Of a stretch of 64,000 bases of DNA, positions 1,737 through 7,801 are shown piece by piece. The DNA is taken from NCBI RefSeq assembly GCF_024398015.1, contig NZ_CP073747.1, forward strand, positions 444,501-508,500. Reading direction: 5' to 3'. Positions within the stretch are counted from its first letter, which is position 1. Each line of letters starts with the position of its first letter. A program made the position numbers and the translations under genes. The notes beneath the pieces are model-generated. The model worked only from the letters and a program-made list of their open reading frames with translations, was not told where the DNA came from and made no database searches. Source of the DNA: Kordiimonas sp. SCSIO 12610. GTDB lineage: Bacteria > Pseudomonadota > Alphaproteobacteria > Sphingomonadales > Kordiimonadaceae.

Positions 1737-4208
1737 TTATGATTGTAACAGGTCTCTTACTGATATTTGCAGGCTTTGACGGCATGCCATATACCCAACC
1801 AGGCAAACAATTGAAACCATCGCGATTACCGTACCCAGTACCCACAATATATCAGGATTATAAGGTAAGCTAAACTGCTCTTCATAGATCAAGATACCAG
1901 CGATCCATGTCCCTGAAATGGCACCTACTGCCGCTATGATGGCAGTGATTGCCCAATCATAGAAATTTAATTTTAAGCAGTCTTTTTTCTTTAGTCCCAT
2001 GCTCAGAAGCAAACCATTTTTTAAGGCGTCATCTGCCCGGTATCCGCTAACGGATGCGGCCAGTACAAAAAGCGCCAACAAGAGTATCATGACTGCATAA
2101 CCATTCGTGACTTTTGAAACGATGCCTAGTGTGTCGTCAAATCGGTCAGTTAGCTCTTTTAAGGGTACAAGCGAGAGTGTTGGGAATCGTTGCCACAATG
2201 CTGAGAGACTGCCCCACGCATCGTCAGGCAACTCCATACTCCCCATATACCGAGTTGGTGCATCAATATGAGTAATCGCAGCAAACGGAACTTGAAACCA
2301 GAAGGTAATGGAGCCGCCACCTGATTTATACGCATGGCTTGCAACAAGCGTAAATGTATAACGACGCCCGTTAATCATGTAGGTGAGTTCATCGCCGTAG
2401 TTAAACCCCATGTCCGTCATGACCTCAGGTTCTGTTGATATTTGCTGCCAACGGGGTGTGTCTTGTTCCCACCAAGTGCCCCCCATAAGTTGATTGTTAC
2501 GAGGGGTTTCATCTGTCCAACTCAGTCGAATAGGGTCCTGGAGTACGGCAAGGGTATCACTCGGCTTTTGCATATAGTCGTTTAAGGCACTTCCGTTGAC
2601 CTCAATCAATTGAGCAGAGACAAAAGGGCGGAGCGCACGTATCTGGCTATCTGTGTTTTTCGCCCAGTTTTTGATTGCCGGTAACTGATTTTCTTGCGCC
2701 TCTGAAATAATCAAATTGCCGTCATGTGTGCGGCTATAGTTTTCAAGCATACCGCCCAGGTCACGCATTAACATCAAGGTAAAAAGCACCAGAAGCCCAC
2801 ATAAGCCAAGCCCCATAATTTGTGAAGACTTTGCAAAAAGGCGTCGTCGCATAATAAAAAACACGAACGGCAATAGACCAGAGCGGCTTTGCCCAAACTT
2901 GTCGCCCAGGCGGATGATGCACCATGTTAGCATTGTCATAAGAACAAGCGCAGCGAATATAGCAATGAGTGTCATTGCAGTTAGTAACCAATTATCAGAA
3001 TATGCCGCAGCGAGTGTTGTCACAGAAATTAACCCCCATAAAAGGCGCTGCCAAACGAAGCTATTTTCTGCGCTATTGCGAATAAGTGAAAGAAGGGAAG
3101 TATGCCTTAGTTGGATAAAACTTGGTGTTTTTAAGGCGAGTAATAGTAAAAAAACCAGAGCGATTGTTTGCGTTACCCCTCGATTAGACCAAACAGCAGT
3201 GATGTTAGGAAAATAAGCCTGTAATTCTGCAATGATCATAAGGTGGGCAAGCCATGCAAATACTGTCCCTGCGATACTGGCGAGCAGAAAGTTGAAAAAC
3301 CATGAACTCAATATAATAGAAATGCCTGTATGAAGGTGCGTGCCAAAACTATTATAGAGGGCGAGACGGTAACGCATCTTGGCGAGCCAGCGTCGGTTTG
3401 TCATATCGAGTGCCACAGCCCCCATAAAAAACAAGATGACCGAAGCGAGGCCAAGAAAGTTTTCAGTTCGTTTCCAGAAGCCGGCTAGTGGATGTACACC
3501 ACCATATTTTTTAATTAGCTTTGCGCCAGCGATATTATCTGACACCCATGTTTCAATGTATTCTTGTTCGCTTGCATCTGCTGAAATTAGATATCTAAGC
3601 CGCAAATTGCTGGTGTCTAGTTCATGTCCACTGTTTGAATGGATCATGGCCCGCATAGCAACACTATGCCCTTCCATCAAGCGGTCTGGCTCATGAAGGA
3701 GGATAGCAGAAATGGTCAAGTCGGTCCCGCCAAGAATGAGTGTGTCACCAACCTGCGCAGATAATTTTGCTGCCAATCGCGGGCCAAGCCAGATTTCATC
3801 TGCTTTTGGTCCTTGTGTTACGCTTTGAGCGAGTGCAGTAGGTGCCGTCGCTATTTGAAGACTACCCTGGACAGGATAGAAATCGTCAACCTGCTTCAAT
3901 TGTACGCGGGCCCAATTATTTTCATGAGTTAGGGTGACATCCGAAAGTGCGGTTTTTGAAACGACATCAGCTATATTACCTAAAGCTGTTTCATGGTAGT
4001 GCGCTAGCGTGCCGTGATTTTCCAAAACCATATCCGAGCCTAACATTTGGTCCAGATTAGTTTTAAGATATTCCTGTATCGAATGGCTCGACAACGACAG
4101 GGTTATCAGGAAAAACAAGAGTGCAGCTTGGGTAGCAAAGCTAATACGACCATCACTATTTTTAAGGTCACGCCAGCTGTTTTCAATCGCAAGACTATAT
4201 TTACTCAT
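1737..4208 (-). CDS. ABC exporter permease, FtsX/YbbP type (10 TM)
   Basis: An 823-residue inner-membrane permease with two FtsX/MacB-like halves. I count about ten membrane spans: one near residues 24-42, then a roughly 200-residue periplasmic domain, six spans between about 250 and 480, a second roughly 200-residue periplasmic domain, and three C-terminal spans. That layout matches YbbP-like permeases that pair with LolD/YbbA-type ATPases; such systems act on lipids, lipoproteins, peptides or envelope stress rather than importing nutrients. It overlaps its ATPase partner by four bases (ATGA), so they are translationally coupled. The divergent two-component system and the shared upstream motif suggest induction by an envelope signal. 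The substrate cannot be read from the sequence. Confidence 0.88.
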   Translation of the reverse strand: MSKYSLAIENSWRDLKNSDGRISFATQAALLFFLITLSLSSHSIQEYLKTNLDQMLGSDMVLENHGTLAHYHETALGNIADVVSKTALSDVTLTHENNWARVQLKQVDDFYPVQGSLQIATAPTALAQSVTQGPKADEIWLGPRLAAKLSAQVGDTLILGGTDLTISAILLHEPDRLMEGHSVAMRAMIHSNSGHELDTSNLRLRYLISADASEQEYIETWVSDNIAGAKLIKKYGGVHPLAGFWKRTENFLGLASVILFFMGAVALDMTNRRWLAKMRYRLALYNSFGTHLHTGISIILSSWFFNFLLASIAGTVFAWLAHLMIIAELQAYFPNITAVWSNRGVTQTIALVFLLLLALKTPSFIQLRHTSLLSLIRNSAENSFVWQRLLWGLISVTTLAAAYSDNWLLTAMTLIAIFAALVLMTMLTWCIIRLGDKFGQSRSGLLPFVFFIMRRRLFAKSSQIMGLGLCGLLVLFTLMLMRDLGGMLENYSRTHDGNLIISEAQENQLPAIKNWAKNTDSQIRALRPFVSAQLIEVNGSALNDYMQKPSDTLAVLQDPIRLSWTDETPRNNQLMGGTWWEQDTPRWQQISTEPEVMTDMGFNYGDELTYMINGRRYTFTLVASHAYKSGGGSITFWFQVPFAAITHIDAPTRYMGSMELPDDAWGSLSALWQRFPTLSLVPLKELTDRFDDTLGIVSKVTNGYAVMILLLALFVLAASVSGYRADDALKNGLLLSMGLKKKDCLKLNFYDWAITAIIAAVGAISGTWIAGILIYEEQFSLPYNPDILWVLGTVIAMVSIVCLVGYMACRQSLQISVRDLLQS

Positions 4209-4864
4209 TTTGCTAACTCCAAACGACCCTCTGATAAGTGTAGGGTTTTGTCTGCTTTCTCAGCTAACTGAGCGCTATGGGTTACAATAATTAGCCCGGC
4301 ACCAGTTTCCCGCGTAAAATCAAACATAAGCTGAGCAACGCTCTCGGATGTGCGGGCATCAAGGTTTCCGGTTGGCTCGTCCGCAAAGATAAACTTGGGA
4401 TTTCCGACAAAGGCCCGGGCGACTGCAATTCGTTGTTGCTCCCCTCCACTTAGCTGATGTGGGTAATGCTTGGCCCGGTCTTCAAGTCCAACCTTCTTGA
4501 GCCATTTTTGCGCGATGTTAAAAGCCTGATTATTGCCTTTTAATCTTAGTGGTAAAGCGAGGTTACTGATCGCGTCAAGCTCTGGCATAAGGTGAAACTG
4601 CTGGAATATAAAGCCTGTGGCTGCGCGGATATCATCCAGGTCTACGCGCTTGCCATCAAGAATAAACTCGACCTCCCCTTCAGTGGGAGTTTCTATGCCT
4701 GCTGCAATAGAGAGTAAGCTGGATTTCCCAGCACCCGAAGGGCCAACGATTGCTATAGTTTGGCCGAAATTAAAGGTTTCACACAGCCCTTTAAATAACT
4801 CAATTCGCTCATTATCTGTTTCAAAATGGTGGCTGATGTTTTTAAGGTTTATTTGATGTTTCAT
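4205..4864 (-). CDS. ABC transporter ATPase, LolD/YbbA type
   Basis: A 219-residue nucleotide-binding subunit, the usual length for ATPases serving MacB/FtsX permeases. It has Walker [10 protein letters not shown]-loop [12 protein letters not shown], signature LSGGEQQR, Walker [13 protein letters not shown] and the switch histidine in IIVTHS. It is the first gene of a two-gene operon with the large permease; an AGGA sequence lies just before the ATG at 4864. The 145-base gap to the divergent response-regulator gene carries two copies of the proposed regulator box, one oriented to this operon. LolD is excluded because no LolC/LolE-sized partner is present; the permease is a single 823-residue chain. 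Confidence 0.93.
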
Positions 4865-4900
4865 TTTATCCTCCTGTCGTTTGCGTACGCTAACAAGGGG

Positions 4901-4920
4901 AATGTCAAATGAAGGTGAAA
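4901..4920 (-). promoter_or_regulatory. Direct-repeat operator in front of the ABC operon
   Basis: Read on the minus strand this is TTTCAC-N5-TTTGACATT, two half-sites starting 11 bases apart. The same arrangement recurs at 4949-4968 and 6957-6976. Tandem half-sites at 10-11 bp spacing are how OmpR/PhoB-family regulators bind, and the regulator gene is adjacent. It lies about 40 bases before the ATPase start. The right half contains a consensus TTGACA, but I find no good -10 hexamer at 16-18 bases, which fits activator dependence. Assignment to the neighbouring regulator is inference. Confidence 0.6.
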
Positions 4921-4948
4921 TGGGAATATCTATAGTGGTTCGACATCA

Positions 4949-4989
4949 TTTGACGTCTGTTTGACATTAAGCGGGCTATGCTTTCTAAT
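4949..4989 (+). promoter_or_regulatory. Direct-repeat operator and sigma-70-like promoter of the two-component operon
   Basis: The box TTTGAC-N5-TTTGACATT occupies 4949-4968 with half-sites 11 bases apart. Its right half includes TTGACA (4961-4966), followed after 17 bases by TCTAAT (4984-4989), a near-consensus -35/-10 pair. The start codon of the response regulator is 20 bases further on. Overlap of the second half-site with the -35 element is a common layout for OmpR-type autoregulation, either direction. Binding is predicted, not shown. Confidence 0.62.
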
Positions 4990-5009
4990 CATTTCGAATA
5001 GGGGCTATT

Positions 5010-5687
5010 ATGCGTGTATTAATTATTGAAGATAACCTGGATATGCAGGCGAATATCGCAGACTATCTAGAGAAAGATTTCAGCCTCGATTTTGCCTATA
5101 ATGGTGATCAGGGATTGGAGCTCGCGCTTGCTAATGAGTATGATGTGATTGTTCTTGATCTTATGCTGCCCGGCCGTGATGGGCTGAGTGTTTGCAACGA
5201 GTATAAAAAGAGAGCAACGTCGTTGGCTCCTATCATAATGCTTACGGCACGTGACACCATTGAGGACAAGGAAGCAGGTTTCAATGTTGGCGCAGATGAT
5301 TATCTGGTTAAGCCCTTTTCCCTAAGGGAACTTAAGATGCGCATCGGCGCGTTAGCGCGTAGACCAAAAGAGCGAATTCAACAAAGTATCTCATATGCAG
5401 GGTTGGTACTTGAGCCCGATTCTCTTCTGCTAACACGTGGTTTGCAAAAGGCCACGCTTTTGGAAAAAGAAGCGAAAATCCTTAGGCTTTTGATTGAGGG
5501 TGCTCCTGATATTGTTTCAACGGCTAGCATCAATTATGCCCTTTGGGGCGAAGAGCCACCTGAGTCTGGAGCTTTAAGGACGCACATTTATAACCTTAGA
5601 AAGTCATTATCTTCCCTTGATGCGTCTGATTTTCTTATTACCCATCGCGGAAAAGGGTATTCGATCAGGGAAGTGAAAGAAATATAA
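5010..5687 (+). CDS. OmpR/PhoB-family response regulator
   Basis: A 225-residue regulator: receiver domain (about 1-118) with acidic pocket IIEDN, phosphoacceptor D50 in VIVLDLMLPG, conserved threonine in MLTAR and lysine in YLVKPF; then a C-terminal winged helix (about 130-222) with the recognition-region pattern LRTHIYNLRKSL and RGKGYSI. It is two bases from the downstream kinase gene and is certainly its partner. Its probable targets are the divergent ABC operon, its own operon and the downstream hydrolase, because all three have a two-half-site direct repeat upstream. Closest named relatives by style would be PmrA/QseB-like regulators, but I would not assign a name. Confidence 0.95.
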   Translation: MRVLIIEDNLDMQANIADYLEKDFSLDFAYNGDQGLELALANEYDVIVLDLMLPGRDGLSVCNEYKKRATSLAPIIMLTARDTIEDKEAGFNVGADDYLVKPFSLRELKMRIGALARRPKERIQQSISYAGLVLEPDSLLLTRGLQKATLLEKEAKILRLLIEGAPDIVSTASINYALWGEEPPESGALRTHIYNLRKSLSSLDASDFLITHRGKGYSIREVKEI

Positions 5688-5689
5688 GC

Positions 5690-6961
5690 ATGAAGAAAAG
5701 AACACGCCGTGTCCGCGGCATGATTATGCGCACCTTCTTGAGCGCAATCATTGTCAATTTTATTATCTTCTCCCTGATTGCAGTTGTTTTTAGCTTCAGT
5801 TTAGAGGATGAGATTTTTGACCTTCAAGTTCGTGAAGCGGTAACCCAGTTGACTGCGAATGAGCAAGCGCTGAATGCTCAGTCTGGATCGTTTCAATCGC
5901 TTGCGATGGAGTATTATATTGGGCAGGAAACCCTGCCTGATTGGTTGAAGACTCATATCGATCCACGATATCAAGATCAGTCATTTGAGGTATTCGCAAA
6001 GGATCGTGGTCATTTTCATGCGTATGCCCATACTTTATCTGATGGGCAAACCTTGTATGTTATGTTCAACGCGCGCCGTTTTATCCGCTCGACACCTCAG
6101 ATAAAAACATTTCTGATGGTGATTGCTGCGCTTGCGGGAATAGCGGCTATTATCTCCTTTTTTGTCCTTAATCGAATGAGTAAGAAAGTTTCTACACCGC
6201 TCGAGCAGATGGCCAGTGCCTTTGAAACGGATAGTTCAGACAAGATAGGCAAAAAAGCAAAAGATCTGACCAGTGGTATTATAGGGGAAATGCATTTGCC
6301 CGAATATGCCCCCAGAGAGCTTCAATCCCTCTACCGGGCAATAGAAGCGCGTAACGCACATATTCAGGCCCTTCTTGAAAGAGAACGGCAATTCAATCGT
6401 GATGCAAGCCATGAACTTAGAACGCCTCTTGCTGTAGCAATAGGGGCTGTTGAGCTTATGGAAGAAAATGAAAGCGATAGCCCAACCTTCCGGCGGCTTA
6501 AGACATCCATGCTTGATATGCAGCAATTAACAGAGGGAATTCTTTGGTTAGGGCGAGCGCCCGAAGCTTTTACACCGTGTTCGCTAAAAGATATCTGGCA
6601 CGAGAATGTTGAGAGTTATCAGCATTTGGTTGGCCATCGAGATATTGAAATTTCATTCGAAGGGGTACCCGCTCATTTTCCTGTGCCGGAGCCTGTAGCA
6701 CACGTCATTGTCGGCAATCTGTTGCGAAATGCTTTGTCTTACACGGATCGTGGGTTGGTTATGTTAAGAATGCACAGTGGCAGTTTTGAAATATTGGATA
6801 CGGGTGTTGGGTATGGAAATTCTGATCCGGACCGCGAGGGGTTTGGTGTTGGCCTTTCGCTCGTAAGGCGACTGTGTGAACATTTTGATATAGCTTTTGA
6901 ACTGCTTAGTCGAGATGAGGGTGGTACGATAGCGAAGTTATCTTGGGGTTCTGATATTTGA
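5690..6961 (+). CDS. Membrane sensor histidine kinase
   Basis: A 423-residue kinase with a cytoplasmic start, one span at about residues 14-36, a periplasmic sensor region of about 100 residues, and a second span at about 140-160. Dimerisation box FNRDASHELRTPL has phosphoacceptor H241; the N-box is VGNLLRNALSYTD (N343, N347), followed by DTGVGYG and GFGVGLSLV ATP-lid glycines. The periplasmic part matches no domain I recognise. The stop codon overlaps the beginning of the third copy of the regulator box, which precedes the hydrolase gene. It forms a two-gene operon with the response regulator. Confidence 0.93.
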   Translation: MKKRTRRVRGMIMRTFLSAIIVNFIIFSLIAVVFSFSLEDEIFDLQVREAVTQLTANEQALNAQSGSFQSLAMEYYIGQETLPDWLKTHIDPRYQDQSFEVFAKDRGHFHAYAHTLSDGQTLYVMFNARRFIRSTPQIKTFLMVIAALAGIAAIISFFVLNRMSKKVSTPLEQMASAFETDSSDKIGKKAKDLTSGIIGEMHLPEYAPRELQSLYRAIEARNAHIQALLERERQFNRDASHELRTPLAVAIGAVELMEENESDSPTFRRLKTSMLDMQQLTEGILWLGRAPEAFTPCSLKDIWHENVESYQHLVGHRDIEISFEGVPAHFPVPEPVAHVIVGNLLRNALSYTDRGLVMLRMHSGSFEILDTGVGYGNSDPDREGFGVGLSLVRRLCEHFDIAFELLSRDEGGTIAKLSWGSDI

Positions 6962-6976
6962 CAATAGATTGACATT
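6957..6976 (+). promoter_or_regulatory. Direct-repeat operator in front of the hydrolase gene
   Basis: TTTGAC-N5-ATTGACATT, half-sites 11 bases apart, matching the two boxes in the ABC/regulator intergenic region. It starts inside the last codons of the kinase gene and ends 39 bases before the hydrolase ATG. No good -10 lies 16-18 bases after TTGACA, which would suit an activated promoter. Predicted from motif recurrence only. Confidence 0.58.
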
Positions 6977-7015
6977 CATCCTGTTACTCAGGGTCTCTAA
7001 AAGGAGACCTGAGAC

Positions 7016-7801
7016 ATGACGCGAAAAATCAAAAATCTTATAAATTCCCTTATCTTCTGTCTAATAGCGGCAAATGCTATCTGGGCAGATACCCATGTTC
7101 AGCAATTTGGATATGATGCGCCGGACGGTAATCGAATAACCGGGTTTATATATCAATCTACAGATACGAAAAAAGGCGCCCCAATCGCCGTATTAATGCA
7201 TGGTTTAATGGGCTCTAGCCTATATTGGCTTGCCGAAGATAATCTTATGCATGGCGACGAGGTTACGGCTAATCTTATTAAGCGTGGATATAGGGTAGTT
7301 GCACTTGATGCACGGGCACACGGCGCAAGAATTATCGATAAAAAGCCGATTGAGTATGTGAAAGCAGCTCGTTCTGGTAATAGTGAAGCATACCAAACGA
7401 TGATTTTGAAAACGATTTCTGATTATCAGTTTCTACTCGATAAACTTACAAAAAACTTTGGAAAGGCCGACCGCATTGTGGCCGTGGGTTATAGTATGGG
7501 GGCACAAATGGCGACAATATTAGCTGCGCGGGATATACGTGTGACCCATCTTGTCACGATGGTACCTCCTGCGGTGCGCAACGTTCCGGAAGTATCACCG
7601 ATTAAGTTTGCGCCAGATGTAAACATTCCCTGGCTATTGATCACTGCAAACAAAGACCAATATTCGAGCAAACAGCAGAATGCCGAATTAATAGAAATTG
7701 CAGGGCAAACACCCGATACTAAAGCCTTTGATAGCAAGCACGTTCTTCCCGGTGCCTACGTAGAGGCTGTTGAGGACTGGATTGATCAAATTAGGGAATG
7801 A
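7016..7801 (+). CDS. Secreted alpha/beta hydrolase
   Basis: A 261-residue hydrolase with a Sec signal peptide (hydrophobic residues about 9-23, cut near AIWA-D). The mature fold shows an oxyanion-loop motif HGLMG (62-66), nucleophile elbow GYSMG with S160, an acid in NKDQY (D215) and a C-terminal histidine H243 in SKHVLPG: a complete catalytic triad. It acts in the periplasm or outside, as an esterase, lipase or peptidase-like enzyme; the substrate is unknown. It lies 54 bases behind the kinase gene and has its own copy of the regulator box, so it probably belongs to the same response as the ABC exporter. A GGAG Shine-Dalgarno sequence is present. Confidence 0.87.
   Translation: MTRKIKNLINSLIFCLIAANAIWADTHVQQFGYDAPDGNRITGFIYQSTDTKKGAPIAVLMHGLMGSSLYWLAEDNLMHGDEVTANLIKRGYRVVALDARAHGARIIDKKPIEYVKAARSGNSEAYQTMILKTISDYQFLLDKLTKNFGKADRIVAVGYSMGAQMATILAARDIRVTHLVTMVPPAVRNVPEVSPIKFAPDVNIPWLLITANKDQYSSKQQNAELIEIAGQTPDTKAFDSKHVLPGAYVEAVEDWIDQIRE

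Follow-up and report, generated by a model that had tools for sequence, protein, structure and literature searches.

Three copies of a 20-bp direct repeat in the genome of Kordiimonas sp. SCSIO 12610 are very probably the binding sites of the OmpR/PhoB-type response regulator that is encoded between them, which would make them the control elements of an autoregulated activator regulon. They lie in a stretch of 64,000 nucleotides (contig NZ_CP073747.1 of assembly GCF_024398015.1, positions 444,501 to 508,500 of the forward strand), here called the window, to which all coordinates refer. Comparative analysis lends strong support to the view that this predicted OmpR/PhoB-type regulon is real, small and autoregulated. 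The three 20-mers of a preliminary description of this DNA are all present exactly as described, with half-sites 11 bp apart, and they do precede an ABC exporter operon, the response-regulator gene and a hydrolase gene. The first box (TTTCACCTTCATTTGACATT, 4901 to 4920, minus strand) combines TTTCAC and TTTGAC halves and lies upstream of the exporter (ATG at 4864, minus strand). The second (TTTGACGTCTGTTTGACATT, 4949 to 4968, plus strand), with two TTTGAC halves, precedes the regulator gene itself (ATG at 5010) and would mediate autoregulation. The third (TTTGACAATAGATTGACATT, 6957 to 6976, plus strand) reads TTTGAC/ATTGAC and precedes the hydrolase gene (ATG at 7016). The assignment of the regulator to the OmpR/PhoB family was borne out by matches above cut-off to PF00072 (87.6 bits) and PF00486 (48.5 bits).

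A -10-like hexamer is found 10 bp downstream of the TTGACA of each box: TAGCGT at the exporter promoter (4887 to 4892, minus strand), TATGCT at the regulator promoter (4977 to 4982, plus strand) and TACTCA at the hydrolase promoter (6985 to 6990, plus strand). At the usual 17-bp spacing, TCTAAT occurs at the regulator promoter, compared with GGTCTC at the hydrolase and CGCAAA at the exporter promoter, in agreement with the earlier remark that two of the three boxes have no -10 at the normal distance.

The boxes are rare. Within the window, allowing up to two mismatches gave 4 matches, where shuffled sequence led one to expect 1.23; those free of mismatches are the three boxes themselves. Across the genome as a whole, a single contig of 3,501,651 bases, 46 such matches were obtained versus 31 for a reversed control pattern; 3 were perfect, 6 had one mismatch and 37 had two. 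The perfect three are again the window boxes, and the genome scan suggested in the preliminary description leaves perfect matches in front of these three genes only. When the TA spaced by 10 bp is added (TTSAC-N6-TTGACR-N10-TA), the same three boxes and no others match perfectly, while sites with one mismatch to this full motif stay at control level (19 versus 17 control matches) and yield no extra members in the genome. The shorter pattern TTSAC-N6-TTGACA has four further matches, three of them inside an open reading frame (ORF) of at least 90 residues and one without a close downstream ORF. A weight matrix built from the sites of relatives only, with the Kordiimonas genome left out, and applied to selected loci gave scores of 36.8, 38.3 and 22.4 for the three boxes; the best of 46 other loci of the genome, taken from the pattern searches and partly overlapping, reached 16.3, far below them. 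Since the evidence in this genome covers three transcription units only, the predicted regulon appears to be small and local there rather than a broad stress regulon.

The same arrangement is maintained in related bacteria. A search with the kinase in 98 genomes identified a clear orthologue (45–56 % identity) in 12 other members of the family, giving 13 carriers of this module type including the Kordiimonas genome and 16 non-carriers among 29 family genomes. Exporter, regulator and kinase genes are arranged identically in all 12 other carriers and the hydrolase gene follows in 10 of them. As for the prospect that relatives with the same regulator might lack the box at the equivalent places, it is there in every case: upstream of the exporter in 12/12, of the regulator in 12/12 and of the syntenic hydrolase in 10/10, the last base of the right half differing in three of these ten (TTGACG or TTGACT). 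Counting the Kordiimonas genome, the exporter and regulator boxes are thus each kept in 13/13 carriers. In one relative (G018), the hydrolase gene has moved to another contig and TTTGACGGTGGTTTGACG is found 41 bp before its start; in another (G002), no hydrolase was found. The box precedes the hydrolase gene in 12/12 genomes that have one, Kordiimonas counted, and these 12 out of 29 family genomes are all module carriers. The pattern TTSAC-N6-TTGACA is in excess in the 13 carriers (64 matches versus 37 for the control) and shows no excess in the 16 non-carriers (34 versus 41). Counted from the listing, 34 of the 64 carrier matches belong to the module, 7 precede the gene described in the next paragraph and 23 lie elsewhere; of 13 examined among the latter, 10 are inside an ORF. 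A second, distantly related YbbP homologue exists in 28 of the 29 family genomes, and in the 19 of these 28 paralogous YbbAP copies whose upstream stretch was examined there is no box (best 16 of 18).

Several carrier matches precede an unlinked gene encoding a CPBP/Rce1-like intramembrane protease (PF02517). Among the 17 listed copies of this gene that are at least 49 % identical to the probe, those in carriers have a box in 8 of 10 cases, perfect in seven and with TTGACG in one (G022), and those in genomes with neither type of module have none (0/6). The copy of G007, a genome with the second regulator type discussed below, is preceded by GTTCAC-N5-TTTCACA with the A of the -10 in place. No CPBP gene was detected in the Kordiimonas genome at an expectation value (E) of 1e-10.

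The distance between box and -10 is nearly invariant. In an alignment of 45 sites (13 exporter, 13 regulator, 12 hydrolase and 7 CPBP), both half-sites hardly vary, the left one being almost as conserved as the right. An A occurs 12 bp after TTGACA, i.e., at the second position of the -10, in 45/45 sites and is preceded by T in 39. The exporter box of 13/13 carriers keeps its hybrid TTTCAC/TTTGAC structure together with an unusually conserved CTTCA spacer; the TTTCAC left half may give it a different affinity. For a wider sample, genome contigs were scanned with a permease alignment and the best 80 of 104 loci retained (a kinase scan of the contigs gave none). These loci extend to Sphingomonadales and many Alteromonadales, and 73 of the 80 have at least one strict box. 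Among 172 distinct boxes (176 before removal of duplicates), chosen blind to the -10, A is present at the 10-bp spacing in 169, TA in 118 and TAnnnT in 96; the corresponding figures for the 17-bp spacing are 29, 4 and 1. The -10 element thus starts 10 bp after the box, and the bound regulator would take the place of a -35. A hexamer T(C/T)T(G/A)AT is nevertheless kept at 17 bp in 8 of 13 regulator promoters of the N type (HxYN helix, see below), and for this reason a weak basal start is possible at the regulator promoters.

The half-site base differs in parallel with the recognition helix of the regulator. Where the helix has HxYN (17 loci), the right half is TTGAC in 49/49 boxes and the left half TTGAC in 32; the other 17 left halves are TTCAC, one per locus and always at the exporter. 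In the 46 loci with an HxYQ regulator, 107 of 112 boxes are TTCAC/TTCAC, two are hybrids (Microbulbifer exporter) and three TTGAC/TTGAC. Two Sphingopyxis-type loci with HxHL have TTGAC/TTGAC upstream of the regulator gene, and in 15 of the 80 loci no regulator was found. Modules of the TTTCAC type are mostly gammaproteobacterial, and in the gammaproteobacterial relatives the box has mostly TTTCACA as its right half; the C-form box at the CPBP gene of G007 provides one extra point for the match between helix and half-site. In a tree of 67 regulators, HxYN forms one clade while HxHL is nested on the HxYQ side, with a long-branch warning. It is conceivable, if on balance somewhat improbable, that the promoter code has been rewired as a set, the HxYN helix going with TTTGAC (at least in the right half) and HxYQ with TTTCAC, and the box at the CPBP target following suit, in its G form where the first regulator occurs and in its C form in G007, which has the second. 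Alpha- and Gammaproteobacteria would then have a dedicated two-component circuit for a second YbbAP-like machine, a specialised one that has a hydrolase to itself and sometimes also an intramembrane protease.

In the gammaproteobacterial modules, further genes lie behind boxes: one for a protein of the DJ-1/PfpI type, apparently with a signal peptide, and, at some loci, one for a PDZ-domain aspartyl protease. Another protein, about 250 residues long and likewise with an apparent signal peptide, is repeatedly found behind a TTTCAC box in Alteromonadales (L178:12557, L190:13738, L217:9542 and others); that of L178, the one scanned, has no Pfam match. Two further observations concern the family. 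The sequence TTTGACCTGTTTTTGACA is common to G011 (L085, near 3159) and G009 (L086, near 2950, minus strand), in both cases outside ORFs of 90 residues, and has CA at the -10 position in L085 and CG in L086. Near 3.37 Mb of the Kordiimonas genome (L098), a second YbbAP-like gene pair adjoins a divergent ORF that has a GDSL motif like that of TesA; no box lies close to it.

The module itself includes the exporter genes on the minus strand, an FtsX-type permease (1737 to 4208) and a YbbA/LolD-like ABC ATPase (4205 to 4864) assigned by domain and family profile matches. YbbP is the only NCBIfam model listed for the permease, which it matches over nearly the full length (residues 13–805) with 149.9 bits, under the curated cut-off of 999. 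On the plus strand, the regulator gene (5010 to 5687) encodes Response_reg and Trans_reg_C domains with the recognition helix LRTHIYNLRK; E7/D8, D50, T79 and K101, which we take to be the residues of the phosphorylation pocket, are invariant across 15 aligned regulators. A possible third half-site, TTCGAC at 4939 to 4944, lies 10 bp upstream of the regulator box and is not evident in the alignment of the relatives. The sensor histidine kinase (5690 to 6961, plus strand; HisKA and HATPase_c) has a predicted extracytoplasmic domain of about 100 residues, folded in the predicted model with a mean predicted local distance difference test score of 83.6, the topology being judged from that model. 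A GHFH motif in this sensor domain (window 5789 to 6103) is invariant in 12 sequences; its best fold match, the sensor domain of a Cellvibrio xylan-regulating kinase (2va0), was too weak (E 0.18) and was not used. The stop codon of the kinase gene (TGA, 6959 to 6961) falls within the left half-site of the hydrolase box. The alpha/beta hydrolase (7016 to 7801, plus strand; PF12697/PF00561) has a GYSMG nucleophile motif and, judged by eye, an apparent signal peptide. An imperfect inverted repeat, CTCAGGGTCTC / GAGACCTGAG, surrounds its ribosome site (window 6987 to 7013), and a CTCC...GGAG form recurs upstream of the hydrolase in several relatives. An RNA hairpin over this ribosome site was considered and no claim is made, the transcription start predicted from the -10 leaving most of the 5' arm untranscribed. 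The module is flanked by ordinary genes (FMN-dependent dehydrogenase, ribonucleotide reductase).

The proposed mechanism draws on what can be read from sequence, namely the boxes with their uniqueness, conservation and fixed geometry, the fact that they occur together with the regulator, and the way in which half-site and helix differ in parallel; from these we infer binding, its dependence on phosphorylation, and activation rather than repression. The partner kinase would phosphorylate the regulator, two molecules of which would then occupy the 11-bp direct repeat TTTGAC-N5-TTTGACA in head-to-tail orientation. The box would fill the -35 place with a weak -10 (TAnnnT) exactly 10 bp further on, and the bound regulator, instead of a sigma-70 -35, would recruit RNA polymerase. 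Switched on in this way would be the regulator-kinase operon, the divergent YbbAP-like exporter and the secreted alpha/beta hydrolase and, in several relatives, also the unlinked CPBP-type intramembrane protease. Of the “envelope-stress regulon” of the preliminary description, the regulon is upheld by uniqueness, conservation, the moved hydrolase gene and the unlinked CPBP target; a broad stress regulon is not, with three units in the genome where it was proposed, and a role of these few genes in envelope stress may be presumed at most.

A number of observations weigh against a simple regulon of this kind. The left half of the exporter box, TTTCAC in 13/13 carriers, departs from a simple repeat, and the hydrolase box of Kordiimonas is the weakest of its three with a matrix score of 22.4. 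Orthologous sites of relatives are not independent draws because the relatives share ancestry, and 32 of the 176 boxes come from contigs already represented in the 45-site alignment. No strict box is present in seven of the 80 permease-scan loci. Three of them (L161, L169, L172) contain a relaxed version; the other four (L150, L154, L181, L186) contain no box at all, even though L154 has a regulator. In L156 and L159, a box is found at the regulator gene and none at the exporter. In the carriers, 23 of the 64 pattern matches (the four of Kordiimonas included) are found neither in the module nor before the CPBP gene, and two of the closer CPBP copies are without a box (G010 and one of two in G018); among the 15 CPBP copies below 49 % identity, none of the 13 scanned has a box of its own, in carriers either. 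Three boxes in HxYQ loci are TTGAC/TTGAC, two of them without the -10 A. Since 11 of the 17 HxYN loci are on the same contigs as carrier loci already included, only six are new. Finally, the match between helix and half-site rests on only one or two changes in the tree, and shared descent could for that reason explain much of it.

The preliminary description had itself cautioned that TTGACA is a sigma-70 -35, and the recurrence could then be plain promoter sequence with an incidental left half. TTGACA is indeed the consensus -35, and the regulator promoter has TCTAAT at 17 bp as do, in similar form, 8 of the 13 N-type regulator promoters. This caution did not hold up, since the spacing between the box and the conserved -10-like element is 10 bp and not 17: among the 172 boxes, a -10 signal is lacking at 17 bp, where 4 have TA and 29 have A, but near-invariant at 10 bp, the left half-site is conserved almost like the right, the gammaproteobacterial right half TTTCACA is no -35, and genomes free of the module show no excess of the pattern. 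We therefore consider an ordinary -35 extremely improbable. Another OmpR-type regulator might read the boxes, the adjoining pair being merely their neighbours; further kinase-domain matches do exist in these genomes, and box and regulator are paired on the basis of sequence. This is very unlikely given that the excess of boxes comes with the module and disappears without it, that carriers retain the box at the moved hydrolase gene and at most of their closer CPBP genes whereas it is missing at such CPBP genes in genomes lacking both module types, and that the half-site base follows the helix class of this very regulator, the CPBP gene of G007 included. As to the direction of control, the regulator might repress all these promoters, or its own only while activating the others, since RNA polymerase can be shut out by a box that covers the -35 position and the 17-bp hexamer of those 8 regulator promoters could serve a basal promoter. 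Yet the constant 10-bp gap between box and -10, seen across four gene families, is expected for contact with polymerase and not for mere blocking. PhoB works this way: according to the accessible part of a structural study, it contacts sigma from a position overlapping the -35 region (PMC3348028). Because the box replaces the -35 at a fixed, PhoB-like distance from the -10, activation is more likely, and repression, a little less remote than a foreign regulator, is still clearly unlikely.

The output of the predicted activator regulon is less certain. By analogy with E. coli YbbAP-TesA, it could be to rid the inner membrane of unwanted molecules that are hydrophobic or lipid-like, a possibility that falls somewhat short of an even chance and is made plausible by the co-regulation of another type of hydrolase with a YbbAP-like exporter. 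The module might instead serve in detoxification of an envelope-active antibiotic or peptide, like the Bce systems of Gram-positive bacteria, and not in lipid housekeeping. A two-component pair beside an exporter under its control is the Bce plan, and BceS is the top structural match of the whole kinase model, though the remaining top matches are other kinases. The predicted extracytoplasmic domain of about 100 residues in the kinase, the fit of the permease to the YbbP model along its length and the co-regulated secreted hydrolase speak against this alternative, which appears rather doubtful.

With the regulon read as proposed, an uncharacterised two-component pair gains a very small set of targets with base-pair predictions for sites and start points, and a YbbAP-like exporter is tied to a signalling system and to a different hydrolase. 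The helix/half-site difference across 65 loci is a compact case for studying how the specificities of a regulator and its regulon change jointly; if the rewiring is true, nature would here provide an example in which a transcription factor switched specificity along with its whole small regulon, perhaps via one contact residue. A literature search found no description of the module, most subscription journals being outside its coverage.

Among known systems, one of the closest to this promoter architecture is PhoB, at whose promoters the downstream -10 lies at a fixed short distance. In the portions of the sources available, PhoB binds two 11-bp direct repeats head to tail, with CTGTCAT as the E. 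coli half-site (PMC4415409), and in a structural model overlaps the -35 region and contacts both sigma and alpha (PMC3348028). The boxes described here likewise form an 11-bp direct repeat that would replace the -35, with the A of the -10 at 10 bp in 169/172. They differ in the half-site, TTTGAC or TTTCAC, and in the targets, which are exporter, hydrolase and protease rather than phosphate genes, and the regulator scores far under the PhoB equivalog cut-off (129.9 versus 296.2 bits). It also falls below the equivalog cut-offs for CpxR (99.7 of 341 bits) and BaeR (107.1 of 380 bits).

Of the published binding sites found, that of ColR from the ColRS system of Pseudomonas putida comes closest. 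As far as the accessible text of that study goes, five of the seven footprinted sites have TTSAC pairs with the 11-bp spacing and the register seen here, the oprQ site being TTCAC-N6-TTGACA, and the regulon includes lipid A and membrane-lipid genes (PMC2689224). The hybrid halves of oprQ match those of the exporter box. In the ColR core, at least as given there, a T-tract separates the halves, in contrast to the variable spacer here, which has no such tract, and the targets differ; the comparison is one of sites, not of protein orthology.

For the exporter, the closest parallel is E. coli YbbAP, which pairs with TesA and for which extraction of hydrophobic compounds for hydrolysis has been proposed in the part of the source available (PMC12646458). 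Both systems, to that extent, comprise an exporter, YbbA/YbbP-like in the present case, plus a secreted hydrolase, but the present enzyme is an alpha/beta hydrolase and not GDSL-type like TesA, and a two-component pair is predicted to control it. The available text of this 2025 structural paper on YbbAP-TesA contains zero mentions of a two-component system, a response regulator or a promoter (PMC12646458). With respect to signalling, a partly accessible source describes Gram-positive BceRS-BceAB as a two-component pair with an ABC exporter, BceS being an intramembrane-sensing kinase (PMC10314905). The present module, as far as this description allows comparison, shares the association of such a pair with an ABC exporter. 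A further likeness is that BceB, too, is FtsX-like. Unlike BceS, the kinase here is probably not intramembrane-sensing, to judge from its predicted extracytoplasmic domain, and the predicted regulon has the hydrolase and the protease as extra targets.

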